A stretch of 64,000 nucleotides of DNA from Bacteroides sp. Marseille-P3684. Lineage in GTDB: Bacteria; Bacteroidota; Bacteroidia; Bacteroidales; Bacteroidaceae. The stretch is taken from assembly GCF_900291465.1 (NCBI RefSeq), contig NZ_LT985808.1, positions 3,110,539-3,174,538 of the forward strand. Reading direction: 5' to 3'. The notes below the pieces were generated by a model that saw only the letters and a program-made list of their open reading frames with translations, was not told where the DNA came from and made no database searches. A program made the position numbers and the translations under genes. Of the stretch, positions 1 through 53,617 are shown one piece after another; the first letter of the stretch is position 1; each line of letters starts with the position of its first letter.

Positions 1-1004
1 CTGAACCGGCTGAAGGCTTCCGCCTGGGGGATATACAGTTCGTCGAGCGTCCGGTGGATGACCCACAGACGGCTGAGGTCTCCCTTGACGAGTGTGACGT
101 CGCGCTTGACGCTGTTCTTCAGTGTGAGCAGTTCCTGCTGGAGGGCGGCAGTCTTCTGTGCGGCGTCGGTGTAGTGCGACACCATGTTGAGGGCAGCCAG
201 CACGAGTCCAGCCTGCTTGCTGCCTCCGCTGCGGTAGGATGCGCCCGCGCGCCGCACGGACTCCTGGAAGCTGTCGGAGATGTCGCTCATGAGGAGTGCA
301 CAGCGTTCGGTCACCTTGTCGTAGTCGAGCTGCACGCGTTGCAGCATGTCGCGCAGGTCGAGCCACTGGACGGAGTCGAAGTCGAAGAGTTCGGGGGCTA
401 CCGCCTTGACGGAGTCGCCGAAGGTGTCGGTCAGTGTGAGGGCGTACTCGCGGTAGATGTCGCAGATGTAGGTGCGGAGCCGCACGAAGTCCGCCATGAG
501 GGTCTTGATGTGCTGTTTGGCATCGTCATAGCCGGCGACCATCTGCGTGTATCCGTTGAACACGGCGGTGGCTTCGTTGCGCACCTTGACCACGCCCTGT
601 GTTCCCACCACGGTGTTGAGGAGGCTTCCTCCGCCGGCAATCTGCACGTTCATGGCTTGGGTGACGCGCTGTTCGAGTGCGCGCAGGGCATCGTTTCCTC
701 CGTCGAGCTGCTTGTGCAGGTAGGGGAAGAGTGCGTCGTCCTGTGTCTCGACGAGGTGTTCCACGCCATACTCGTCGACAAGCCCTCGTTTCCCGTCGTT
801 ATCGTAGAAGGCTTGCCGTATGGCCTTGTCATCGCGGAAGTTCTTGTATGCTTCCCAGACGAGCATGCCGACTTCGAACCCGTCTTTGGAGATGCCCATT
901 TCCTGAAGGTCGAACGCAAGGTCCGCCCGTGTATAGGTTCCTCCGTTCTGCTCCAGCCGATGGGCGATGTCGCGAATCTTCTGATAAATCTTTTGTTTGT
1001 CCAT
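1..1004 (-). CDS. Helical protein of the dynamin cluster, 3' end beyond the window
   Basis: An open frame reads leftwards from an ATG at 1004 (protein begins MDKQKIYQKIRDIAHRLEQN) to the window edge, about 334 residues without a stop. The first ~75 residues look like a small helical or winged-helix domain (TYTRADLAFDLQEMG). The rest is alpha-helical with Gln/Glu/Leu-rich stretches and no clear membrane segment or enzyme motif. It lies 78 bp downstream of the two-TM protein gene on the same strand, so it may be the last visible gene of the dynamin operon. Its base composition is GC-rich like the host genes, unlike the AT-rich dynamin genes before it, so it could instead be a resident gene. I do not recognise the family. 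A large plus-strand frame over the same DNA is its antisense shadow. Confidence 0.7.
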   Translation of the reverse strand, partial: MDKQKIYQKIRDIAHRLEQNGGTYTRADLAFDLQEMGISKDGFEVGMLVWEAYKNFRDDKAIRQAFYDNDGKRGLVDEYGVEHLVETQDDALFPYLHKQLDGGNDALRALEQRVTQAMNVQIAGGGSLLNTVVGTQGVVKVRNEATAVFNGYTQMVAGYDDAKQHIKTLMADFVRLRTYICDIYREYALTLTDTFGDSVKAVAPELFDFDSVQWLDLRDMLQRVQLDYDKVTERCALLMSDISDSFQESVRRAGASYRSGGSKQAGLVLAALNMVSHYTDAAQKTAALQQELLTLKNSVKRDVTLVKGDLSRLWVIHRTLDELYIPQAEAFSRF

Positions 1005-1082
1005 GGGTATGGGTTAAATGTGTTTTGTTTGCTGCGAAGTTAGGGGTGAGGTGTGCTAAAGGGAAGCATAGGGGGAAGAAAA

Positions 1083-1748
1083 TTACCCGCAAATGTCATA
1101 CATTGCCTGATAACGTTTCAGCTGCTCCTGGTAAGCCTGCTCGATGGCACCCACATATTGATTTTCAAACTGAGCACAATAATCCTTATACGATTGAATG
1201 TTATGCTCTTTCTCAATCTGGTTCAAAGCAGACAGCACATCCATCATTGAAAATTGAATCACTGAACGACGGATAGCCAAATCCATCATTTTATCTTTTT
1301 CAGATTCCGTCAAGGATGAAGTCTGGATGGCACGCTTCAGCTCCGTACCCTGCGCCATTGAGAACTCATCCCAGGAATTTACGGCAAGCGCATGAATCTC
1401 TCCCAGTTGGGCATTCAACTTTCCGGTGAACATTGCATAGTCTATCTGTTCACTTTCCATCTTTCTGGCACCTTTGCCTTTACTCATGCCGTATATCCCA
1501 ACAGCTGCGACCAATCCTCCTCCGACAGCTACGACATTGGACTTGGTTGCCAAACCAAGAATCAGCAGCAACGCCCCCACTCCAATACAAGATGGATATG
1601 CGGCAGATAATTTTGGCTTTTCAGGCACAAGTTCCGACGCCTGTTGCGGATAAGCAATCTGGCCAATCCGTGATTTCACCATGGATTGCAACTCATTCCT
1701 TTTAGAAGTCAGGGCTTCCATATAAGATTTAATTAATTCCTTGTTCAT
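1083..1748 (-). CDS. Two-TM membrane protein coupled to dynamin-like GTPase
   Basis: A 221-residue protein starting MNKELIKSYMEALTSKRN. Two adjacent hydrophobic segments lie at about residues 53-68 (CIGVGALLLILGLATK) and 71-86, forming a tight membrane hairpin with cytoplasmic helical flanks. The C-terminal ~130 residues are predicted helical and charged. Its ATG overlaps the TGA of the upstream dynamin-like gene as ATGA (1745-1748), a strong sign of translational coupling and of joint function. I do not recognise the family. A membrane adaptor or anchor for the GTPases is a reasonable inference, because bacterial dynamin-like proteins act on membranes and two of the three GTPases here show no obvious TM segment. 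Confidence 0.8.
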   Translation of the reverse strand: MNKELIKSYMEALTSKRNELQSMVKSRIGQIAYPQQASELVPEKPKLSAAYPSCIGVGALLLILGLATKSNVVAVGGGLVAAVGIYGMSKGKGARKMESEQIDYAMFTGKLNAQLGEIHALAVNSWDEFSMAQGTELKRAIQTSSLTESEKDKMMDLAIRRSVIQFSMMDVLSALNQIEKEHNIQSYKDYCAQFENQYVGAIEQAYQEQLKRYQAMYDICG

Positions 1749-3946
1749 AACTTTTCTGCAATCTTTACTAATCCGTTTATTACTTTTTCCATCATGTGCA
1801 GCTCCTGTTCCTTATTCATTAACTGCTGCTCCAACTCGCATCTAAGCTGTTCAGTCTTTTTTCTCACAGAATTCATGAATTCATCTTTTTTGGTGGATAA
1901 TACCGCCAATGTACTCTCACGCGCATTTCTCAGCTCCTGTGGTACCGAAGTTTCCGACATTGTCGACAGGAATTGCCTGATTTTAGTCACAACCCGTTCT
2001 TTAGCATAAGCGGCTTCCCTTTGCACAGCAACTTTCGCCTCAGCTTCTTTGCAATCATATTTCTTCGGTATACGCTCTCCTCCTTGTAACAAGGACGGCA
2101 ACGCCTCGTACCCTTTCTTTATGGCACGGATATCAAGAGTCAACTTATTACTCATGGCATCAAGAGTCTCCTCCAGAATGTAGCTCAGTTCGCGTCCATC
2201 CAAATAGCCTTCCTTATCCTTCGTCTCCACCTCAGTAATAGCCTCGCCTATACCTTTTTTTATACGTTCTTTCAGCTCGTCACTTTTACTCTTCCATTCA
2301 GATTTAATCTTGTCCAGTTGCTTATCCACCGCATTACGAACGTTGTCAATCGTACCCACAATATCAACCGCATCATATTCCACCTGAATCGTTCGACTTC
2401 CCCAAAGTCTCCCTTTGCATGTGACATTGTCACTCACATGACTCATGCTCACTTTTCCAATATTACTCAGGGTAAAGTTATTGAGGCATTCCTTTACATA
2501 CTGGTCAGCAATCTCATTTGCCCGATTCCGGATTGATTTCAGACTCATTTCTATCCCATTACAAACTTCATCCAAAATCCTCTTCCGTTCTTTTGCTCCA
2601 TTGATATCACTCTGTTTCAACTGATTCATCCGGTTTTCCAACCGTTCTTTTTTCTCAGACAGAATCTTATGAAGCTCGGCATTTGTGTTATTGAAATAAG
2701 CATTGACCTTGTTTTGAATAATCTGCTCCTTATTTCCCTTAAACGAACCTTCCACATACTTTGCACGAATATCCTCAATTTGAGAAAGATTCATAAAGAT
2801 CTCCTTGATTTCTTTAGAAGAGCTAAAGAAACTGGGATAAAAATACTTCATCTGCTTCACAACATGAGCCTCGATTTCATCCCAACGCTTTTCATCCTTT
2901 TGGGCTATTGAAAATCCGATACCGGAACTAAAATCAATGATCGGATCATCTCCTGTGTAATTGGACGTAGCCATATTGTTCCTGAATTGCTTCTTCAAAG
3001 AACGCTGGCAATACTCAATCGCACCTCCCAAATCATCCCCAAACTTCATTCCGACATCTTGTAAGACAGAATCAAACTTACTGCCGATCAATACGACAGT
3101 CCCGATACCTTGTGAACCGATTCGTTCTGAAAGGAAAGTGACATCCGTACTATCAAAGAAACGCCCGGAGTAACTCAGGAAGAAGACGCCATGACATCCC
3201 CTCAAAAAGTCACGCGTTCTCACCTCACGGGAAACAACAGGGTCATTCACTCCCGGGGTATCCACAATCTGTACACCGACCAGACGTTCATCCTTCAGTC
3301 TTATGGTCAAGCACTTCACAATGGGGGTGTATGTTCCTTCCGCACCCACATAATCTTCCAGAATGTCTTGAAGATCGGTGATATTGGAAAAGGAACGAGC
3401 CTCTATTTTCGATTGTTCTTGAATCTTACCACGCGCCATCCTGCTGCAGGACGATACTAAATCTTTTGCTGCAATCAGCGTATCATCCACCAATCCTGAA
3501 CGACGAATATCCTCCTCCGTCACAGAAGGATTCTGTTCCTTCTCAGCCTTCAGGATGTCATCATATTCCTTTGCCCTGTCTTCAAAAGAATGCCATTCAG
3601 AAGAATTATAATACTCTACCTCAAACTGATTTTCATCGCCATATTGCAGGACAGTAAGACCAGCAGTCATAGGAGTCGAAGCCCGGGGGAGTACATTTTC
3701 CCCATCGAAAAAGAGAGAATTCAAAAACGAAGACTTGCCGGCTTTTACCTGACCCACGACTCCGATTTTCAAGATTCCATTCTCACTTTTTACCAGGTCA
3801 GCACCTTGACGAACCTCAAGAATTTTATCTTTCAGTTCCTTGATTGGTTTCTTCAAGACATCGCCAATACCGGCATTTTCCAACGCAGACAAGTCATTGT
3901 CCAATGAGGCAAAAATCTGCTGATAATTATCAATCGTAACCTTCAT
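1745..3946 (-). CDS. Dynamin-like GTPase, third of the cluster
   Basis: A dynamin/Era-like large GTPase of 733 residues from the start at 3946 (MKVTIDNYQQIFASL). An in-frame upstream ATG at 3979 would overlap the preceding gene by 22 bp; 3946 lies just after that gene's stop and is preferred. Motifs in the 733-residue numbering: G1 GQVKAGKSS at about 65-73, a G2-like Thr in STPMTAGLT at about 90-98, G3 DTPG at about 229-232, and a G4-like SKFD at about 289-292. After the G domain comes a long helical, charged region with probable coiled coils (about 370-460 and 640-733), as expected for the stalk of dynamin-family proteins. No clear TM helix is seen. The gene is AT-rich compared with the flanking genome. 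GTP-dependent membrane remodelling is the family role; the target here is unknown. Confidence 0.88.
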   Translation of the reverse strand: MKVTIDNYQQIFASLDNDLSALENAGIGDVLKKPIKELKDKILEVRQGADLVKSENGILKIGVVGQVKAGKSSFLNSLFFDGENVLPRASTPMTAGLTVLQYGDENQFEVEYYNSSEWHSFEDRAKEYDDILKAEKEQNPSVTEEDIRRSGLVDDTLIAAKDLVSSCSRMARGKIQEQSKIEARSFSNITDLQDILEDYVGAEGTYTPIVKCLTIRLKDERLVGVQIVDTPGVNDPVVSREVRTRDFLRGCHGVFFLSYSGRFFDSTDVTFLSERIGSQGIGTVVLIGSKFDSVLQDVGMKFGDDLGGAIEYCQRSLKKQFRNNMATSNYTGDDPIIDFSSGIGFSIAQKDEKRWDEIEAHVVKQMKYFYPSFFSSSKEIKEIFMNLSQIEDIRAKYVEGSFKGNKEQIIQNKVNAYFNNTNAELHKILSEKKERLENRMNQLKQSDINGAKERKRILDEVCNGIEMSLKSIRNRANEIADQYVKECLNNFTLSNIGKVSMSHVSDNVTCKGRLWGSRTIQVEYDAVDIVGTIDNVRNAVDKQLDKIKSEWKSKSDELKERIKKGIGEAITEVETKDKEGYLDGRELSYILEETLDAMSNKLTLDIRAIKKGYEALPSLLQGGERIPKKYDCKEAEAKVAVQREAAYAKERVVTKIRQFLSTMSETSVPQELRNARESTLAVLSTKKDEFMNSVRKKTEQLRCELEQQLMNKEQELHMMEKVINGLVKIAEKL

Positions 3947-3957
3947 AATCGTATCTG

Positions 3958-5979
3958 TTATTGATATTGTGCAATCCACTTCGTAAACGTGTTCATACCT
4001 GCCAATTTGACTAATGGCTGAGACTCATAAACCAAAGATCGGTCTGCCTCGATAAGCATCTCACAGATGTCTTGATAATGGCACATGGCAGCTGTTTCCA
4101 GCGCATTATAGCCTCTCTTGTCTTTCATGGACAGGTCTGCATCATGCGTAATGAAGAATTTGACCATCTCATTATTGCCGGAACGTACAGCCCAAGTAAG
4201 CGGTGAGAATCCCCCATTATTGCAAACACTTAAATCGACCCCCTGAGAGAAACAAGACAAAAACCGTCCATAATCATCTCCACTAATCGCTGAAAAGATA
4301 TTCATATCCTGTTCTCTCTCTATCTGCTGCAATTCCTCCTGATGCTGTTTCACAGCCTTTACCGCTCTATTGTATGAATCCTTCAAGGTAGCAACAAGCT
4401 GAAACCGGTATTTTCCCAGTAGTTTTACCAACTCTTCCTCTTTCTTGCGACCCTCTATCGAGGTTTGATAAACATCCTCAAATTCTTTCAGCACGTCTTT
4501 ATATTTATCCAAAGAATCATCATAAAGCGTACAAATCTCATTATAAAGTTCTGTACGGAATTCTTCATCATAATATTGATAGTTAGCCTGGGAGTTACAT
4601 AGCTTATTAAATTTATCAATCGCAGAACTATATCGTCTACTTAGGTCGGAAGCATCACTGAAAAAGCCAACCTTATCGGCCCATTCAGCCTCCCTGTCCA
4701 ATGCCTCGCCCCAACCTTCCAGAGCCTTCTGAAAATAATCCATCCGTTTGTCCGCACAGCCCATTATCTCGTTATAATTAGACAAGATAACCTCTTCTAC
4801 TGCCCCCTTACTCGCCGAGTTCTCATCCTTTTTATCTTGGTAATACTTACGCCACTCTTGTTTGTCATTAACCAGTTCTAGTCTCTTAGCTTCATAATCC
4901 TTAATCATTTCATTGGAAGCATTGATCTCATCCATCAAAAGCCTTTCAATTTCTCCGGAGTAACGGCTTAACAGGCTCATAGTACTCCCGGATTTAGTCT
5001 TCACTGCTTGGATGATTTGTGAAAAGGTTGTATTGAATGTAGCATAGAGCTGTCTAGTAACACAAGAAAAAGAAAGTATTGCCAACGGAAATTTGTCTTT
5101 ATTAAATTCCTTTGCGCAAAGTTTTTCAGTATCCTGTATGATTTTCCTGACTGCTCCCACGTCTTTTTTGTCCATCTTAGTATACAAGATAACTATAGGT
5201 TTATCCTGTACCTTCTTCAGCATCTCCAAATCATTCTTGGTAATCGTTCCACTTTCCACATCAATGCACCAAAAGATGGCATCACATTTCTCCATTGCTT
5301 CAATTGCTTTTTCCCTGTCAGACTCGTTTTGCCCAACAGCATTGTTATAGCCCGGAGTATCAACAAACGTGATACCATCCAGATATTTATCTCTTACAGA
5401 AACATCTATAACAATTTTCTTTAGCACATTAGCGATGTATGTCTTTGACTTGGAAGAATGCTGGATGCAAGCTAAAACTTCATCATTCAACAAGACCAAT
5501 TCATCTTTCAAGTTTTCTCCCCGGATAACCAAGCGCTTATTAGGGGAGAAGACGCAATTCAGGTATGTATTGACCACGGACACCGGCTCCACACCCGTCG
5601 GCAACAAGTCTCCGATACCTGTAAGATAATTAAGCAAAGACGACTTTCCGGCGCTATATCCTCCTGCAACTGCAATTTTCAAAGAAGAAGACATTGTACT
5701 CACCAATTCATCCTCCAAAGCGATAACCTTCCAAAAGCAATCATCTATCAAATCAGAATTCAACAAATCATAGTTATCCAAATCCGGTTTCATTTGTTTG
5801 TTAAGCAAATCATATACCGGTTGAAAGCACGGTGTCAACTCCAAATCAGTGGAAGCGGTACAAATATGAGAAATCAAATTGAGAGCCATTTGTGGATTCT
5901 CATATTTGTTCACCTTGATAATCTGAGCCGTTTGCTTTCCCATGGCTGCACCTTTCCGTTTTATTGCATCAAGTCCCAT
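3958..5979 (-). CDS. Dynamin-like GTPase with C-terminal ankyrin repeats
   Basis: A 673-residue protein; a second in-frame ATG lies at residue 13 (MGKQTAQIIKVNK). GTPase motifs: G1 GGYSAGKSS at 106-114, G3 DTPG at 207-210, and a canonical G4 TKMD at 267-270, so of the three GTPases this has the most standard nucleotide pocket. A long helical/coiled region (about 340-560) follows. The last ~100 residues carry two to three ankyrin-type repeats, seen in FSPLTWAVRSGNNEMVKFF and GYNALETAAMCHYQDICEML. Ankyrin repeats bind proteins, so this member may be the recognition or regulatory subunit of a GTPase complex. Ankyrin fused to a bacterial dynamin is unusual to my knowledge. The gene lies 186 bp after the first dynamin gene and 11 bp before the third. 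Confidence 0.88.
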   Translation of the reverse strand: MGLDAIKRKGAAMGKQTAQIIKVNKYENPQMALNLISHICTASTDLELTPCFQPVYDLLNKQMKPDLDNYDLLNSDLIDDCFWKVIALEDELVSTMSSSLKIAVAGGYSAGKSSLLNYLTGIGDLLPTGVEPVSVVNTYLNCVFSPNKRLVIRGENLKDELVLLNDEVLACIQHSSKSKTYIANVLKKIVIDVSVRDKYLDGITFVDTPGYNNAVGQNESDREKAIEAMEKCDAIFWCIDVESGTITKNDLEMLKKVQDKPIVILYTKMDKKDVGAVRKIIQDTEKLCAKEFNKDKFPLAILSFSCVTRQLYATFNTTFSQIIQAVKTKSGSTMSLLSRYSGEIERLLMDEINASNEMIKDYEAKRLELVNDKQEWRKYYQDKKDENSASKGAVEEVILSNYNEIMGCADKRMDYFQKALEGWGEALDREAEWADKVGFFSDASDLSRRYSSAIDKFNKLCNSQANYQYYDEEFRTELYNEICTLYDDSLDKYKDVLKEFEDVYQTSIEGRKKEEELVKLLGKYRFQLVATLKDSYNRAVKAVKQHQEELQQIEREQDMNIFSAISGDDYGRFLSCFSQGVDLSVCNNGGFSPLTWAVRSGNNEMVKFFITHDADLSMKDKRGYNALETAAMCHYQDICEMLIEADRSLVYESQPLVKLAGMNTFTKWIAQYQ

Positions 5980-6054
5980 ATCTAAAGAAGTTTCAGTTTT
6001 CAGTAAATAATATCCTACTAAGATTCAACGTTTTGATAATACGCTCATTGATAT

Positions 6055-6128
6055 GCATGTTCTTTAGCCATCCTGTTCTTTTGCCTGAATCGCTATGCTT
6101 CCGAAACAAGATGGCTAAAGATACATGC
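6055..6128. repeat. Large inverted repeat between two dynamin genes
   Basis: The 186-bp gap between the first and second dynamin genes holds imperfect arms of about 25 bases, at 6055-6078 and 6103-6128, both containing CTTTAGCCATC or its complement. The arms are separated by 24 bases. No T-tract follows on the minus strand, so a simple intrinsic terminator is not obvious. It could be an attenuator or RNA-processing site that sets GTPase ratios, or a relic of an inserted element. Confidence 0.6.
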
Positions 6129-6165
6129 CTTACCAGACGCACCACAAAGGTGAGTCCATGCACAA

Positions 6166-7869
6166 TCAGCGTTTCAAATTCTCCAATTTATCAATGGCAA
6201 CCTGCAAAGCCTTAACCTTCAAAGCTGTGCTTTCTTCATCAGCACGCTGCTCCTGTTGAACCATTTTAACACTGTCATTGAACTTTTGAGCTTCTGAATT
6301 AATCAGTTGTTCCATACTATTCATAGCCTCCCGCCGTTGTTCATCCAACATAGTGGTAACCGGCTCACGCAAAGACTCAACAATTTTAGGAACAATTTCC
6401 GACACTATCTTCTGGCGAATAAGGTCAACCTTACTTTCTCTGCTCTTTCCAAAAATCAAACGAAGCAAATCCGGAATAATGTTCAGAAGAATAGTAACTA
6501 ATGGGGCGAGAATTTTACCCAAAGTACCCAATAAGGTTGACAGACCCTTATAAGCAATCAGTTTTTCCATTAGCTTATCCAAGCCCTTTTTCAAAAGGCC
6601 TTCCAAGACCTCCCTGCCTAACAGATTTCCTATAATCTCGTTGGCAGCATCCAATGCCTGATTCCCCTTATCCTGCAAGATATCATTGACTTTCAAGGAG
6701 AAATCTCTAACACTATCACCAATCACATTCTGATATTCAGAAATCTCACGTTTAAAGGAGGAGAACAATACCGGACGAATGATTGACAACAACTCAGCAC
6801 TGAATGCATCCGTACTATTATTATTGCTGATAAAATGCGCCAGATGAAGGCTATTCTTTACTAAAGCCTCACGAATGTCATTCAAAACGTCATCAGCAGA
6901 GTTTTCCAAAGATTGTGCTCCAGCAGCTTTCGCTCTCAGGCTTTCAAGAGTTTTCTCACGTTCTGCTCCCAATGCTGCAATCTTGCTTTGGAAATCCTTC
7001 TTATCAGAACATGCAAGTTTAATCTGCAACTGCAAATCTTCGATTATTTCATCAATAAATCCGCAAACCAGTTCTGAATACTTTTGGGTTATGAAGGTCT
7101 CGGCATCCAAGTTATCCAATAGTCTCAGCACATCATCATACTGCTTTGTTACAGAAGACACTGTTCCGACAACAGCATCAGGACCAATGATACGTTGAGC
7201 TATATCCTCAACATTCTTTACGATAGTGGGTACCTCGGATTCGGGCTTCCCCTCAACTTTTGAAAGGAAGATGGAACATTTCAAACCGTACTTCTTCAAT
7301 TCATCAATGAATCGAAGCGTAGATCTCGACAACGTACCTTGCTCTATCTCTGACAGAAGAATGAAATAAGAACCTTCCTGAATATAGCTGAGAATAGCAT
7401 TGTTATGTGCCTCTATTCCGGAATTGATTCCCGGCATGTCAACAAGAACAATTCCCCGGTCGTTCAACCTCTTCAGAAAATCATTCTTCAGATACACATA
7501 AACAACATCTCCAGGAACAGCCTTTAAAGCTCCTATTTGTGACAAAGGTGCAGTCCCCTGCTTTTCTCCCTTATGATAAATTTGAAGATATTCCTCTTCT
7601 GAATAGTACAATTCATAAGCGACTGCAGTAGTCGGAACGATATCCGTCGGCAGGAGGTTTATTCCCATCATCGTATTCAACAATGAACTTTTACCGGCAT
7701 TAAAATCTCCGACAAAAGGAACTTTGATGAAACGATTCGAAGCCAAATCATTCAATAGCCCTTTCTGCTCTTCTTCCAAACGGTGCATCAGAGCATCCGA
7801 CTTGATATACTCCCTAGCTATTTCAGTAGCTTGGCTGATTCTTTCTGTGTAAAATTTAGTTCTTTCCAT
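6166..7869 (-). CDS. Dynamin-like GTPase with hydrophobic C-terminal segment
   Basis: A 567-residue dynamin-family GTPase. G1 is GDFNAGKSS at 54-62, G2 probably the Thr pair in DIVPTTA (about 77-82), and G3 DMPG at 144-147. The usual (N/T)KxD is replaced by SKVE at about 203-206, so base recognition may be relaxed. Helical stalk regions follow. A strongly hydrophobic stretch at about 443-473 (LAPLVTILLNIIPDLLRLIF) is a likely membrane-inserting paddle or TM hairpin, as in bacterial dynamin-like proteins. This is the first GTPase of the cluster, starting 15 bp after the zinc-ribbon gene. AT-rich composition contrasts with the genes on both sides of the cluster. Confidence 0.88.
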   Translation of the reverse strand: MERTKFYTERISQATEIAREYIKSDALMHRLEEEQKGLLNDLASNRFIKVPFVGDFNAGKSSLLNTMMGINLLPTDIVPTTAVAYELYYSEEEYLQIYHKGEKQGTAPLSQIGALKAVPGDVVYVYLKNDFLKRLNDRGIVLVDMPGINSGIEAHNNAILSYIQEGSYFILLSEIEQGTLSRSTLRFIDELKKYGLKCSIFLSKVEGKPESEVPTIVKNVEDIAQRIIGPDAVVGTVSSVTKQYDDVLRLLDNLDAETFITQKYSELVCGFIDEIIEDLQLQIKLACSDKKDFQSKIAALGAEREKTLESLRAKAAGAQSLENSADDVLNDIREALVKNSLHLAHFISNNNSTDAFSAELLSIIRPVLFSSFKREISEYQNVIGDSVRDFSLKVNDILQDKGNQALDAANEIIGNLLGREVLEGLLKKGLDKLMEKLIAYKGLSTLLGTLGKILAPLVTILLNIIPDLLRLIFGKSRESKVDLIRQKIVSEIVPKIVESLREPVTTMLDEQRREAMNSMEQLINSEAQKFNDSVKMVQQEQRADEESTALKVKALQVAIDKLENLKR

Positions 7870-7884
7870 GGTGAGTTTATTTAA

Positions 7885-8115
7885 TCATTTTATTCCTTTT
7901 CTCATTTCCTTTTCTCTTTCTTCCATCCCTTCCCAAATCCCCCGGTACACCCATTCATGGAGTCTGCCCAGCCATCCTGCGGGGCGTGTACGTATGCTGC
8001 CGCAATGCGGGCAACGTTGGGGCATGGTGTAGAAGGTAGCGGCATACTCGATGTCCAGACCGGGGAACTTCTTGCCGCAATGGGTACACTTGAATTGGGT
8101 TATTCCGCGTAACAT
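7885..8115 (-). CDS. Small zinc-ribbon protein upstream of dynamin genes
   Basis: A 76-residue protein from the ATG at 8115 (MLRGITQFKCTHCGKKF). A longer in-frame start at 8181 would lie inside the upstream gene; 8115 sits 4 bp after that gene's stop and is preferred. Two Cys pairs, CTHC near residue 10 and CPHC near residue 35, form a rubredoxin-like zinc ribbon. The CGKKF tail of the first knuckle is the same as in both fingers of the upstream protein, suggesting shared ancestry or function. The C-terminus is an amphipathic charged helix rich in Glu, Arg and Trp. Function is unknown; its place between the zinc-finger protein and the GTPases suggests the same transcript. Confidence 0.7.
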   Translation of the reverse strand: MLRGITQFKCTHCGKKFPGLDIEYAATFYTMPQRCPHCGSIRTRPAGWLGRLHEWVYRGIWEGMEEREKEMRKGIK

Positions 8116-8119
8116 AACC

Positions 8120-8479
8120 TTACAATGCCGGGGAATGATGCCCCTTGTTCTTCCCCTTGGGATGGTGCACACACTGGCCACCGGTCATGACCTGGATGCT
8201 GGGGAACTTCTTGCCACAATATTTACACGTGTATTCACTCTTTTCCGTCCCTTCGTAGAGCTTGTGACGTCCCTTGTTCGGTCCGTCGGGGTGACGGACG
8301 CAGGTGGCGGAAGTCAACTGACGGACACTGGCGAACTTCTTGCCGCAGTATTCGCAATAACAGGTGGGGGTTGATGAAGACATGGCCACTCCTTTCCCGG
8401 GCAGCATGCCCGACGTGAAGAGCAGGTACAGACCGAAGGCTGCAACGCTCATGGATAAGATAGATACTCGGTTTTTCAT
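8120..8479 (-). CDS. Membrane-anchored protein with two zinc-finger-like repeats
   Basis: A 119-residue protein with one N-terminal hydrophobic segment (about residues 7-31, a signal anchor or uncleaved signal). It is followed by two tandem copies of a ~34-residue module: C-x2-C-G-K-K-F-x-S-x5-x-C-x2-H-P-x-G-x-N-K-G-x-H. The first begins CEYCGKKFASVRQL and the second CKYCGKKFPSIQVM. The Cys/His spacing suggests each binds a metal. This is the first gene after a consensus Bacteroides promoter and the likely head of the dynamin operon. I know no characterised homologue. If the signal anchor places the fingers in the periplasm, a metal-binding or redox sensing role is possible, but topology is not settled. 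Confidence 0.75.
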   Translation of the reverse strand: MKNRVSILSMSVAAFGLYLLFTSGMLPGKGVAMSSSTPTCYCEYCGKKFASVRQLTSATCVRHPDGPNKGRHKLYEGTEKSEYTCKYCGKKFPSIQVMTGGQCVHHPKGKNKGHHSPAL

Positions 8480-8522: not shown

Positions 8523-8554
8523 CAAAGTTATTTGTCTCGTGTACCACTGCCAAA
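8523..8554 (-). promoter_or_regulatory. Consensus Bacteroides promoter of the dynamin/zinc-finger cluster
   Basis: Read on the minus strand: TTTG (8554-8551), exactly 20 bases, then TAACTTTG (8530-8523). This matches the Bacteroides -33/-7 consensus in full. The -7 box lies 43 bp before the start codon at 8479. Confidence 0.85.
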
Positions 8555-26118: not shown

Positions 26119-26985
26119 ATGAAGAAAGCATATACAATAGAAGAGCAAATAGCCAGACTTAAATCCAATGGAATGATATTTGACAACGAGGAGAAAGCGA
26201 AAGAGATTCTACTCGATGTCGGGTATTATCGGCTTGGTTTTTATTCTTTTCCTTATGAGATTCAGTTCCCTAATCTTGAGCATCGTGACCACCAACTGAA
26301 ACAAGGAACTACATTCAAAAGTGTCTATGATCTCTATGAGTTTGACACGAAACTCCGCAGGCTGTTGCTTAATGCCCTTGACCGCATAGAAGTCAACATC
26401 CGTACCAAACTAATCTATCATATATCCCTCCGATATAAAGAAGATCCGTGTTGGTTTGTAAACCGCAAGTATGTATCTTCTAAATTCGTCAACAATTTTG
26501 AAGAACAGGTTTATGCTCCTTTGCGTAAGAATCCCATCATTGAGCATCACCATGCCAATCATGCCGGCATATATGCGCCAGCGTGGAAAGCCATCGAATT
26601 TATGACCTTAGGTAATATCATACGATTGTACGATGCACTGAAAGAGACGGATGCAAAGAACTTAATCACCAATGAATACGGCTGTTCAAGAGGTGTGTTC
26701 TACAACTATCTTGAAACGATTCGTGTCCTTCGCAACAAATGTGCCCACGGTGGGTGCTTGTATCGTATGGATTTTCCCAAAGGTATCAAACGACTACCAG
26801 CGAATGTTTCGGAATACAACAGACACAATATTAAAGGTGGCATAGATGTTGTAAGATATTTGCTGGGGAAAATTTCTCAAAATCGAATGGCAGAGTTAGA
26901 TAATGAAATACGTATTCTTGTCAATTCCATCCAAACTACCGAGGCTAAAAACGTTATCGCTGAAGTGTCAAACATGAAAAATTAA
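26119..26985 (+). CDS. Abi family (AbiD/AbiF-type) HEPN ribonuclease-like protein
   Basis: A 288-residue Abi_2-family protein. Typical features are an N-terminal EEQIARLKSNGM, the VGYYRLGFYSFPYE block and the FDTKLRRLLLNALDRIEVNIRT helix. The HEPN RNase motif R-x4-H is seen as RNKCAH at 205-210. Family members cause abortive infection or act as RNA-cleaving toxins. The gene is clearly AT-rich compared with its GC-rich neighbours and lies between two MITE-like copies, a sign of transfer. A structured candidate RNA with its own promoter box and terminator starts about 60 bp after the stop. AbiF-type proteins have been proposed to work with a small RNA and to be related to the ancestors of Cas13, so this pairing matters. 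Confidence 0.9.
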   Translation: MKKAYTIEEQIARLKSNGMIFDNEEKAKEILLDVGYYRLGFYSFPYEIQFPNLEHRDHQLKQGTTFKSVYDLYEFDTKLRRLLLNALDRIEVNIRTKLIYHISLRYKEDPCWFVNRKYVSSKFVNNFEEQVYAPLRKNPIIEHHHANHAGIYAPAWKAIEFMTLGNIIRLYDALKETDAKNLITNEYGCSRGVFYNYLETIRVLRNKCAHGGCLYRMDFPKGIKRLPANVSEYNRHNIKGGIDVVRYLLGKISQNRMAELDNEIRILVNSIQTTEAKNVIAEVSNMKN

Positions 26986-49853: not shown

Positions 49854-51125
49854 CTAGAGAGACCGACTCGGTTTTAATCTACTATCCAACACACTGGCAA
49901 ACACATCCATTTCCCTTTTGGAAATACCTAGGCGTAGGGCTTGGCTACGCCAATCCTGTACAGCATCAGTTACCTCCTGTATGATGATTTCAGCTACATT
50001 ACGCCCTATCATATATTCCTCGCAAGCATCCAGTAAGGTTTGTAAATCAGCCTTATTTGATGTGGAAGTGATGAGCAGGCTTTGATATTCATTCAGCGTT
50101 GGATTCATGTCGTATGCTGGAGATAACGTCCAGCCTTTGGGTGTCAAAAGAAAACCATGATTACGGAAATGGTCATCGCTATTGCCGATGCAAACATTGA
50201 AAACCACCCGACGATAGAGCTCTTGTAAGTTATCTTCTACATTGGTACAATTTTGAAGGATGAAATCAACGATATTCAGATAGCCATGTCCCGTTGTGGC
50301 ATTATCCCCGTCAGAAAGTCCCAACAAGGTCATTGCGGAAGCAAAGTGAATCCGACGACCTTCAGTGTTACGGTCGAAACGTCTGGAAAGTAGTGTGTGA
50401 AATTTCTCTCCAACTGACAAGACTTCAGTGTGTGCAGCATTGATACCGGCTTTGTGTGCAAGCAGGTGGGTAAAATGCTCCCATAATCCGATGTCATAAT
50501 CATCCTTACGCGAAGGAAATTTAGCGACATAAAGTGTTTTATTTTCACCGATGACACTGGCTTTCGGTCTTGCTCCCCCCAATGAAGATCCCGGCATTAC
50601 AAGCTGATTTATCCACTTCTTGGAAGGTAGTTGACTTTCTTCTTCACTTCTCTCTATCTCCATACTGGCTGCTATCAGATTACGGACGTCCGTCAAAGGA
50701 GGAATCTGCAAGGATTTCTCCACGTTGATAAATTCTCCATTTTTATCTTTTTTGAAACGGAGTCCTCCCATACGAGAGAAATCATCTATACCCGTTAGGA
50801 AATCAAAAGATGACAACCTACGTATCGGTCTACCTTCTTCCGACGCAGCTATTTGCTCACGTCGCAAAAGTAATGTACGTCCCCATCGATCAGGCAAAGC
50901 GTCTGAGAAGCACCCAAAAATATCTTTTCCCGGTTCCGTATATTGCATCCCCGGATAGTTATTCAAATCCTCACACAAGAATAAATCGCCATGTTTCCTC
51001 AACCATTCATCATGGAATGAAAAACTATAACTATCTGAGCCTCGAAGAGATTCATATCCGAGTTCTCCGATGAGCTCCACTCCCTTGAGCCAATCAAAAT
51101 CAGCATATACATAAAGTTTCTTCAT
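49854..51125 (-). CDS. HipA-like serine/threonine kinase toxin
   Basis: A 423-residue HipA-family protein. The N-terminal HipA_N-like part contains PGMQYTEPGKDIFGCFSDALPDRWGR. The kinase core has the Gly-rich SLGGARPKAS (181-190), catalytic loop NSDDHFRNHG (315-324) and metal-binding YDMNP (338-342). HipA kinases inactivate targets such as aminoacyl-tRNA synthetases by phosphorylation and cause growth arrest; here the target is unknown. It starts 3 bp after a small XRE repressor gene, the expected HipB-like antitoxin. All catalytic motifs are intact. AT-rich relative to neighbours. Confidence 0.92.
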   Translation of the reverse strand: MKKLYVYADFDWLKGVELIGELGYESLRGSDSYSFSFHDEWLRKHGDLFLCEDLNNYPGMQYTEPGKDIFGCFSDALPDRWGRTLLLRREQIAASEEGRPIRRLSSFDFLTGIDDFSRMGGLRFKKDKNGEFINVEKSLQIPPLTDVRNLIAASMEIERSEEESQLPSKKWINQLVMPGSSLGGARPKASVIGENKTLYVAKFPSRKDDYDIGLWEHFTHLLAHKAGINAAHTEVLSVGEKFHTLLSRRFDRNTEGRRIHFASAMTLLGLSDGDNATTGHGYLNIVDFILQNCTNVEDNLQELYRRVVFNVCIGNSDDHFRNHGFLLTPKGWTLSPAYDMNPTLNEYQSLLITSTSNKADLQTLLDACEEYMIGRNVAEIIIQEVTDAVQDWRSQALRLGISKREMDVFASVLDSRLKPSRSL

Positions 51126-51128
51126 AGC

Positions 51129-51449
51129 TTATTCCTTTTTAGACGCTCGCATTCTGGTCTTCAAGCTCAAATCTTGCAAGGCCTTTCCCAACTTATCTTC
51201 TTTGGCAAGCCACAAGATGTCATCATCTAATTGTAAAGCATAAAGTACCCGAAGGTAAATGCCTATAGCTACCGTTGAGACACCTTTTTCTATACGCGAC
51301 ACAGTCAGAGGGGAACAAGTAGCTCGTTCTGCCACTTGGGCTACACTCAGATTTCTCCGTAATCGAGCCATCTTGATTTGTTCTCCTACTATCTGCATCT
51401 TTTGTTCTAATTTCCGTGGTAACTTTGTGCCCATTGTGCTTTTAGTCAT
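51129..51449 (-). CDS. XRE-family antitoxin/repressor (HipB-like)
   Basis: A 106-residue DNA-binding protein. The Cro/C1-type HTH is seen in IKMARLRRNLSVAQVAERATCSPLTVSRIEKG. The C-terminal tail is helical and basic. It directly precedes the HipA-like gene and probably represses its own operon and neutralises the kinase. A short palindrome and a promoter-like box lie just upstream. A start at the sixth codon (51434) is also possible. Confidence 0.9.
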   Translation of the reverse strand: MTKSTMGTKLPRKLEQKMQIVGEQIKMARLRRNLSVAQVAERATCSPLTVSRIEKGVSTVAIGIYLRVLYALQLDDDILWLAKEDKLGKALQDLSLKTRMRASKKE

Positions 51450-52246: not shown

Positions 52247-53617
52247 ATGAGAAGAAAGATATACGATAAACTGCTGGAATGGAAGAAGAACCATAAAGGT
52301 GATACCGCCCTTCTGATAGAAGGAGCCAGACGTATAGGGAAAAGCTATATCGTGGAAGAATTCGCCCGCAAGGAATATACATCTTACATACTGGTGGACT
52401 TCAGCAAGGTAAATCCGCAAGTGATGGAGTTTTTCAACCTTTATCTGGACGACCTCGACATGCTTTTCATGAACCTGGAGCTTTATTTCAGACGAAAACT
52501 TACCCCACGTCAGACAAAAGACGAAGAAGCCCGTTCCCTGGTCATATTCGATGAAGTGCAGTTTTGCCCCCGTGCCCGTGCAGCCATCAAGCATTTGGTG
52601 GCAGACCGTCGCTATGATTACATTGAGACAGGCTCGCTCATTTCCATCAAGAAGAATGTCAAGGACATCATGCTGCCTTCCGAAGAACACGCCATCGAAA
52701 TGTTTCCGATGGACTTTGAGGAATTTTTGTGGGCTATGGGAGACGAGATGCTGATGCCTTACATACGGATGCGGTTTGACAAACGTCTTCCTATGGAGAC
52801 TTTTCATCGTCGGGCAATGGATTATTTCCGGCAATACCTGATTGTCGGAGGTATGCCGCAGGCTGTCGCCAAATATGTGGAAACGCGGGATTTTGAAAAG
52901 GTGGATGAGGTGAAGCGTGACATATTGGCCCTTTATCGCAATGACATTCACAAATATGCCGACAATCAGGAAACCAAAGTTGCCGCTATTTTTGAGGAAA
53001 TACCGGGTCAATTGCAGAAACATGAAAAGAAGTTTGTCTTGTCCGCCTTGCAGAGCGAAGCCCGTATGCGTGACTATTCGCAGGCTTTCTTTTGGTTGAG
53101 TGACGCCAAAATCATTAACTGCTGCTATAACTCAACAGAGCCGAGTATCGGACTGAAACTGAATGAAGAACGCACCACGCTGAAATGCTACATGGGCGAT
53201 ACCGGACTGCTCATCAGTCATGCTTTCGACGAACGGGGAATAGTAAGCGCAGACCTTTATCGGAAGCTGATGTTTGACAAGCTGGAAGTGAACGAGGGGA
53301 TGTTGGTAGAGAACATCGTGGCGCAGATGCTTCGTGCGGCAGGACACAGACTTTATTTCTTCAGCAACAGTTCCCGGACATCGGCTGACGACCGTATGGA
53401 GATAGATTTCCTGATAGCCAAACCTGTAACGACCAGCAGGCATAATATTTCCCCCATAGAGGTGAAGTCCGGGCAACGTTACACACTGAATTCATTGAGA
53501 AAGTGCATAGCCAAGTATGGCTCCCAGTTATCCACACCCTACGTGCTTCATGACAAGGATGTGAAAACAGAAGATGGCATTGTGTACCTGCCTTTATATA
53601 TGACACCGTTGCTTTGA
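52247..53617 (+). CDS. AAA ATPase with DUF4143 domain
   Basis: A 456-residue AAA_14/DUF4143 protein. Walker A-type GARRIGKS at about 26-33, Walker B-like LVIFDEVQFCP near 101-111, and the C-terminal DUF4143 with a restriction-nuclease-like D/E...K core (MEIDFLIAKP...ISPIEVKSG). Such genes are frequent, variable accessory genes in Bacteroides and archaea; the molecular role is not established. It stands alone between two 53-bp repeats, which suggests a mobile cassette. Confidence 0.9.
   Translation: MRRKIYDKLLEWKKNHKGDTALLIEGARRIGKSYIVEEFARKEYTSYILVDFSKVNPQVMEFFNLYLDDLDMLFMNLELYFRRKLTPRQTKDEEARSLVIFDEVQFCPRARAAIKHLVADRRYDYIETGSLISIKKNVKDIMLPSEEHAIEMFPMDFEEFLWAMGDEMLMPYIRMRFDKRLPMETFHRRAMDYFRQYLIVGGMPQAVAKYVETRDFEKVDEVKRDILALYRNDIHKYADNQETKVAAIFEEIPGQLQKHEKKFVLSALQSEARMRDYSQAFFWLSDAKIINCCYNSTEPSIGLKLNEERTTLKCYMGDTGLLISHAFDERGIVSADLYRKLMFDKLEVNEGMLVENIVAQMLRAAGHRLYFFSNSSRTSADDRMEIDFLIAKPVTTSRHNISPIEVKSGQRYTLNSLRKCIAKYGSQLSTPYVLHDKDVKTEDGIVYLPLYMTPLL

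Follow-up and report, generated by a model that had tools for sequence, protein, structure and literature searches.

Do three neighbouring genes for dynamin-like GTPases in a Bacteroides genome belong to one system, and what would such a system be for? The question is raised by a stretch of 64,000 nucleotides from Bacteroides sp. Marseille-P3684 (contig NZ_LT985808.1, forward strand; G000:C1:3110539-3174538 of a 3.7-Mb genome), referred to below as the window. Near its left end the genes Zn119, Zn98, DLP1, DLP2 (which has ankyrin repeats), DLP3 and TM221 follow one another on the minus strand in the direction of transcription. DLP1, DLP2 and DLP3 are the GTPases (the triad), TM221 is a small membrane protein, and Zn119 and Zn98 are small Cys-rich proteins. 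A first-pass annotation, made from the letters alone, had read the region as a multi-subunit membrane-surveillance or defence system. We found the same three-dynamin set as one mobile unit in many unrelated bacteria. Defence or toxin genes are often its neighbours, suggesting a membrane machine of bacterial conflict that has attracted little notice.

Three dynamin classes in one cassette

The three GTPases are full-length, divergent and in tandem, as the annotation described them. All exceed the Pfam Dynamin_N cut-off of 27 bits (DLP3 77.0, DLP2 62.0, and DLP1 72.8), the G1 motifs GDFNAGKSS, GGYSAGKSS, and GQVKAGKSS are present as it gave them, and the helical neck/trunk fold expected of the dynamin superfamily lies behind the G domain. 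Ankyrin repeats occupy residues 576-645 of DLP2. Two weaker Dynamin_N matches lie elsewhere in the genome.

The DLP2 of the window served as the only query against 201 genomes from its own taxonomic family. Nine genomes matched at E ≤ 1.3e-17, the window's own included (G000, G044, G049, G050, G074, G117, G142, G156, and G192), and nine further genomes matched at 6e-9 or worse. In all eight of the other close-match genomes (neighbourhoods L030-L037), DLP1 and DLP3 adjoin DLP2 in the order DLP1-DLP2-DLP3. Profiles for DLP1 and DLP3 were built from the nine triad loci; their recovery of those loci (DLP1 E ≤ 1.2e-133, DLP3 E ≤ 1.7e-242) is by construction, and what they test is the absence of further DLP1 or DLP3 genomes. 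Within the 201 genomes no close DLP1 or DLP3 was found without the trio, the one exception being a DLP1 fragment in G106 (6e-50) that sits where a contig ends. G158 holds a distant DLP3-like gene (1.4e-31) with no DLP1 match, and the weaker matches are other GTPases. Since eight of eight DLP2 genomes also hold DLP1 and DLP3, in the same order, and none was found without the trio, chance adjacency is ruled out.

Does the set extend beyond the family? A DLP3 profile was run over species genomes, and the best 80 of 323 relatives were used. Together with the family loci, and after the duplicates L040, L053, L057, and L006 had been dropped, they gave 86 loci: 32 from Bacillota, 26 from Bacteroidota, 10 from Campylobacterota, 6 from Pseudomonadota, 2 from Synergistota, 1 from Spirochaetota, and 9 from the family sample. 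The Alphaproteobacteria label of one locus (L038) may be a binning error. All three classes occur in 69 of the 86 loci, contig-truncated ones counted, and in 41 of the 43 loci with at least 6 kb on both sides of DLP3, the exceptions being L062 (DLP3 and DLP1 only) and L096 (DLP3 only); most loci were gathered by DLP3, so the latter figure is conditional on DLP3, and the family search with DLP2 is free of that condition. Gene order among the 69 full loci is 1-2-3 in 55, 1-3-2 in 5, and another permutation in 9. Successive pairs lie on the same strand in 153 of 155 cases, and 103 of these 153 overlap or stand no more than 30 bp apart. The annotation had proposed checking whether gene order is conserved, and had named homologues scattered without order as what would refute it. 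With 41 of 43 well-flanked loci complete, homologues are not so scattered, content and order are conserved, and the idea of a multi-subunit system is borne out at the level of genes. The cassette is rare: DLP3 was found at E ≤ 1e-15 in 2 of 395 genomes of a phylum sample, own genome included. A genome-contig scan with DLP2 alone as query gave no match.

The three classes are distinct. A hydrophobic segment follows the G domain in 58 of 67 DLP1, 2 of 75 DLP2, and 3 of 85 DLP3 proteins. A tree built from 224 G-domain rows places every class on one side of a branch (SH-like support 83 for DLP1, 85 for DLP2, and 100 for DLP3). For both results, open reading frames below 400 aa or 60 bits were dropped, and for the tree 3 of 227 rows that lacked a P-loop match were removed as well. 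Profile scores had fixed the class of each protein before the tree was built, and some of its branches are flagged as long. Each class is thus one clade across six phyla, and recent local duplication is ruled out. Over 62 loci, pairwise distance matrices correlate at r = 0.95 (DLP1 with DLP3), 0.94 (DLP2 with DLP3), and 0.91 (DLP1 with DLP2), and none of 2000 shuffles reached these values, within-phylum shuffles included. From the class clades and the correlated distances, the trio appears to be old and to have diverged as a unit even where gene order changed.

In profile searches of the PDB, DLP3 resembled BDLP (3.3e-21) and Cj-DLP1 (5.9e-19), and DLP2 resembled Cj-DLP2 (5e-12). DLP1 was about equally near to Cj-DLP2 (4.5e-11), BDLP (8.5e-11), and Cj-DLP1 (1.2e-10).

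Mobility, subtypes and neighbouring genes

The cassette is mobile, as judged from an insertion absent from a sister genome and from plasmids of five genera. At the same site the sister genome (G008) reads exo-WYL-AAA-Zn98-mutS2 with no triad, and 11.3 kb of our sequence, from L006:6615 to window position 7917, correspond there to 183 bp. In G036, AAA-WYL-exo adjoins mutS2. The insertion holds DLP1-3, TM221, a 700-aa protein, a DUF4112 protein, and a 268-aa protein. GC content is 0.40-0.45 in DLP1, DLP2, DLP3, and TM221 and 0.53-0.62 in the genes around, which fits acquisition of this block.

Among 72,556 plasmid records, 15 gave a DLP3 match, in Escherichia (10), Pseudomonas (2), Photobacterium, Calditerrivibrio, and Moraxella. 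Six were examined by profile. Five hold all three classes, among them L130, where DLP1 runs off the start of the record; in the sixth, the E. coli plasmid L127, DLP3 is in three pieces. A Pseudomonas aeruginosa plasmid carries its triad behind a WYL gene and near ZorC (702 bits), ZorD (1662 bits), and an integrase, and on a Photobacterium plasmid the triad lies between traU and traN. A complete triad is found on an Escherichia albertii plasmid and on near-identical E. coli plasmids (L126, where a CFI-box gene comes next). As a megablast query, which would miss more diverged copies, the E. albertii triad matched 5 of 5426 E. coli genomes, always on plasmids. Besides the broken DLP3 of L127, an IS3 element lies inside the plasmid triad of NZ_CP148386.1. 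From these two cases, plasmid cassettes may decay and may hence be costly or dispensable.

Subtypes differ in what is attached to the core. In subtype A, that of the window, DLP2 carries ankyrin repeats wherever scanned (window, L041, L044, and L051). The TM221 family was found by clustering in 19 loci, window included; a search of the 201 family genomes found it in three, each time beside a triad, and missed a more distant relative in G156 (L032) that the clustering recovered. In 12 loci of subtype B, DLP1 and DLP2 are separated by a coiled-coil protein of 121-135 aa, in most cases hydrophobic at its N-terminus, and in 5 of these 12 a 72-aa DUF6140 protein directly precedes DLP1. Another family, F0, contributes one to three members beside the DLPs in 28 loci, mainly of Bacillota, and a HerA/DUF87-like ATPase of ~1047 aa lies downstream of DLP3 in 19 loci. 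The four F0 members scanned had no Pfam match; by eye, some F0 proteins (L069, L063, and L105) seem to end in beta-helix-like repeats. The DLP2 of L061 ends in TPR repeats, and in two Massilia loci a patatin phospholipase domain forms the N-terminal part of DLP1 (89.3 and 87.5 bits against a cut-off of 27.7; L104:2908-6675 and L112:2785-6543). The annotation had cast the ankyrin GTPase as sensor or adaptor; an adaptor role becomes likelier with the TPR and coiled-coil modules that occur in the same class. A small protein without a Pfam family (family 11; 131 aa in L107) follows triads closely in 6 loci, which come from both Bacteroidota subtypes, for example at L031:15051-15323, L035:11392-11799, and L107:8247-8642.

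Coordinates in the window are collected in Table 1. The start codon listed for DLP3, a GTG, is probably too early, as its relatives begin at or near an ATG 12 codons downstream, and the true start of Zn98 is probably the ATG at 8115, giving 76 aa. The annotation's two-transmembrane protein joined by an ATGA overlap is TM221: the 4-base overlap with DLP3 is there, but only one hydrophobic segment passes the threshold, from residue 49, and a second, weaker one is seen by eye. The two small Cys-rich genes do lie behind a promoter-like pattern. The pattern TTTG-N20-TAACTTTG, which we take to be the Bacteroides promoter consensus, occurs upstream of Zn119 and has four matches in the window against 0.25 expected.

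Table 1. Positions of the cassette, its neighbours and the insertion in the window
Feature	Position	Strand	Evidence or remark
DLP1, 567 aa, dynamin-like GTPase with hydrophobic paddle-like segment from ~residue 446	6166..7869	-	
DLP2, 673 aa, dynamin-like GTPase with C-terminal ankyrin repeats	3958..5979	-	Pfam Dynamin_N 62.0 bits, Ank_2 44.8 bits; class monophyletic
DLP3, 744 aa as listed, ~733 from likely ATG, BDLP1/Cj-DLP1-like dynamin-like GTPase	1745..3979	-	
TM221, small membrane protein, fourth cassette member of the ankyrin subtype	1083..1748	-	hydrophobic segment; family of 19 loci
Promoter pattern, Bacteroides-type, TTTG-N20-TAACTTTG	8523..8554	-	upstream of Zn119
Zn119, two-finger Cys/His protein, neighbouring unit, non-core	8120..8479	-	9 of 11 carrier family genomes without triad
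Zn98, zinc-ribbon protein, part of the older locus, non-core	7885..8181	-	adjoins mutS2 in triad-less sister G008
Right part of the 11.3-kb insertion	1..7917	.	continues 3.4 kb left of the window to L006:6615
N-terminal part of 700-aa helical protein, insertion passenger, non-cassette	3..1004	-	

The Cys-rich pair, which the annotation had counted as part of the system, falls outside it. Zn119 occurs in 11 and Zn98 in 21 of the 201 family genomes, no more than ~1 kb separates them in 7, and the only triad-bearing genomes in either set are G000 and G117. Most carriers lack the triad, and both genes also head other gene sets, which rules them out as core; we regard the pair as an accessory unit of its own within a variable locus. 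In G008 (L118) Zn98, at 72% DNA identity, stands beside mutS2. Zn119 relatives occur near triads also in L031, L058, L110, and a Deferribacterota plasmid (L131). In L149-L156, Zn119 and Zn98 head variable Bacteroidota gene sets, with LHH-like nucleases, DUF6140, and WYL proteins recognised nearby by eye; one such set (L150) contains a different dynamin-like pair, of which one member has a TerB match below the cut-off.

The "helical protein" that the annotation placed in the cluster (3-1004) is cut by the window edge. In full it has 700 aa and is followed by a 198-aa DUF4112 protein. It is absent at E ≤ 1e-20 from the other 14 of the 15 genus genomes and has no relative in the cassette loci searched, so it drops out as a cluster member. 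Both proteins are ruled out as core; one weak DUF4112 relative lies in L044. The 268-aa protein, called UDG-like by eye, was tried as a member of a recurring family (family 10) and had no match. Elsewhere in the window, low-GC patches hold an Abi_2 abortive-infection protein (26119-26985, plus strand, 158.4 bits) and a HipA-like toxin with its HTH partner (49854-51449, minus strand), and an AAA_14/DUF4143 ATPase (52247-53617, plus strand) adjoins the HipA pair.

A role in conflict and the readings that compete with it

With modest confidence, we favour the reading of this mobile three-dynamin system as a hetero-oligomeric membrane machine of a conflict system, in Bacteroidota most likely an anti-phage one. 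A conflict role is suggested by the patchy distribution, the plasmids, the insertion, WYL-type regulators, Zorya genes near one triad, the patatin fusion, and the precedent of DynA. Two families of WYL-type regulators (families 5 and 8, the latter named by eye) occur in 19 of the 86 loci, and the PADLOC WYL model matched four flank proteins. Bacillus subtilis DynA is reported, in the passages cited, to protect against phage (PMC8844932). We consider a defence role plausible.

How might such a machine work? We propose that DLP3, which is BDLP1/Cj-DLP1-like, would be the core, that DLP1 would enter the membrane through its paddle, and that DLP2 would act as an adaptor reading the trigger through its ankyrin, TPR, or coiled-coil modules. 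The anchor of the complex at the inner membrane would be TM221 or a comparable small membrane protein. A trigger would then lead to assembly and GTP hydrolysis and so to membrane remodelling. Some lineages would also have added a payload: a phospholipase on DLP1, or nuclease modules. The outcome could be local membrane damage that aborts infection, to which we lean, or sealing that delays lysis. A bolder version is possible but doubtful: an undescribed, mobile and modular conflict machine with an obligate three-dynamin core to which lineages attach interchangeable sensors (ankyrin, TPR, coiled coil) and equally interchangeable payloads (patatin, HerA-linked toxins and immunity), a machine which in Bacillota would perhaps amount to a new dynamin-driven toxin delivery and in Gram-negatives to membrane-attacking immunity.

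Several observations weigh against the conflict machine as we favour it. That the three GTPases would form one hetero-oligomer is drawn from gene content only. A comparison of flanks (up to three proteins of at least 150 aa per side at 29 Bacteroidota loci, cassette partners excluded) gave 90 PADLOC families among 139 proteins, against 20 among 103 control proteins from 16 stretches of other Bacteroidota genomes. It is a weak test: the families overlap, hits per protein are not given, and the control also held defence genes. Some Bacteroidota cassettes sit among housekeeping genes, named by eye (ribosomal proteins in L036, aroE in L032). In the 19 HerA-like loci, mainly of Bacillota, the neighbours resemble exported toxins with immunity, which suggests another role there. 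Among 50,697 phage records no cassette match was found, and of 105 pattern matches in IMG/VR none was confirmed as a relative; these searches rule out a phage-borne unit.

The chief rival to the anti-phage reading, in our view an unlikely one, is that the triad exports antibacterial toxins by remodelling or budding membrane, along the lines of the vesicle release to which LeoABC has been linked (PMC4159319, in the passages cited), with the HerA/FtsK-like ATPase, where present, feeding nuclease toxins whose immunity genes lie downstream. The 19 loci with the 1047-aa HerA-like gene, of which 18 bear labels of Bacillota families or orders and one that of Synergistaceae, speak for it. In 17 of them, not in L074 and L089, a nuclease-toxin-like gene follows and then a second small gene, mostly at distances of -16 to +73 bp, so that HerA-like gene, toxin, and immunity-like partner form the layout of polymorphic toxin loci (L063, L064, L066, L068-L071, L073, L075, L077, L080, L081, L083, L085-L087, and L100). 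Scanned toxins pass the Pfam cut-off in L063 (LHH), L069 and L083 (WHH), and L077 (Endonuclea_NS_2); that of L080 (HNH) falls just under it, and the first toxin of L085 had no match. Four of five small partners scanned match known families (three SUKH families and one DUF6985). A short N-terminal motif, chosen after inspection of loci several of which are near-copies, occurs in 10 of 18 toxins with differing C-termini and in 11 of 1357 open reading frames overall. Type VII export, moreover, is described in the passages cited as driven by FtsK/HerA ATPases (PMC3482391). Yet the nearest solved relatives of the HerA-like ATPase are HerA helicases (a weak, partial match), about half of the 17 toxin loci belong to Lachnospiraceae and some are near-copies (L068, L069, L071, and L087), and an LHH-family nuclease lies near only two Bacteroidota triads (L109 and L113). 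Beside the window's cassette we recognised no toxin/immunity pair, and the polymorphic-toxin layout is not found there; for this reason we hold the anti-phage reading to be the most likely one for the window.

Two further readings would do without a new conflict machine. A triad that tethers and seals damaged inner membrane under envelope stress, as a DynA- or Cj-DLP-like repair device outside any conflict, strikes us as improbable, as the rare, patchy, and partly plasmid-borne distribution is unlike that of housekeeping repair, and the patatin fusion also counts against it. We give still less credence to an Eleos/LeoABC-type system with one extra paralogue, which would make the cassette already known. 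We take Eleos to be LeoA/LeoBC. The best weak PADLOC matches are indeed LeoA and LeoBC, and the window's DLP2 aligns with LeoBC at a low 33.4 bits over a long stretch (residues 97-582), in a library without cut-off. However, no LeoA or LeoBC match exceeds 49.9 bits, and DLP1 meets LeoA at 36.6 bits in the same cut-off-free library, with its best stretch confined to 42 residues (31-72). LeoA was not among the PDB profile matches at E ≤ 0.01 for DLP1 or DLP2; it took row 27 for DLP3, and its absence from the best 50 rows for DLP1 proves nothing. LeoABC consists, in the passages cited, of two dynamins, one split over two genes (PMC4159319), whereas the cassette has three complete, unsplit genes. 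Dynamin-like genes of other kinds also occur in the same family, two per contig and away from triads (G113, G190, and G196).

Relation to known dynamin systems

The annotation knew of no described system with this gene set, and we agree: our search of the open-access literature, a scope that leaves most subscription papers and bioRxiv outside, found no published description of the three-dynamin set as a system in the passages seen, and PADLOC 2023 gave only weak LeoA/LeoBC matches to the cassette. Bacterial dynamins have so far been studied singly or in pairs. Three members, deeply conserved and each class with features of its own, would mean that greater complexity is possible in heterotypic dynamin machines. 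Such a trio would also serve as a compact model, in bacteria, of mitofusin-like cooperation, and it would bring to light either immunity based on membranes or a new way of releasing toxins. The plasmid triads of E. albertii and E. coli make a direct test in laboratory strains possible now.

Which known systems come closest? What is said of them here refers to the passages cited from each source. DO-GTPase/GAP1 conflict systems likewise combine GTPases with variable effectors and transmembrane parts (PMC7159879), but their GTPases are of another family, and the word "dynamin" is absent from that paper. B. subtilis DynA is a bacterial dynamin with an anti-phage, lysis-delaying effect (PMC8844932); unlike the triad, it is a single fused two-dynamin chain, and the NCBIfam DynA model, whose cut-off is 1600 bits, scores at most 27.4 bits here. 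Eleos is counted among defence systems as a dynamin-like one (PMC11811056). LeoABC (E. coli LeoA, LeoB, and LeoC), like our cassette, is a group of dynamin genes; it forms an operon on an island and has been linked to vesicle release (PMC4159319). It differs in having two dynamins, one of them split into LeoB and LeoC, in place of three, and matches the triad weakly by profile.

The Campylobacter jejuni pair Cj-DLP1/Cj-DLP2 (5OWV) resembles the cassette in its side-by-side dynamin genes, as a BDLP1-like DLP3 stands here beside a Cj-DLP2-like DLP2; it has two dynamin genes where we find three, and the passages cited report no ankyrin, TPR, or patatin modules for it. A Helicobacter pylori island brings together three DLP-helical proteins (PMC8935386). 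The passages cited interpret it as a pathogenicity island, in which a "labile enterotoxin output A" gene lies, and not as such a system; possibly it holds the same triad. Set beside these systems, the cassette would be a heterotypic bacterial dynamin system of three members.

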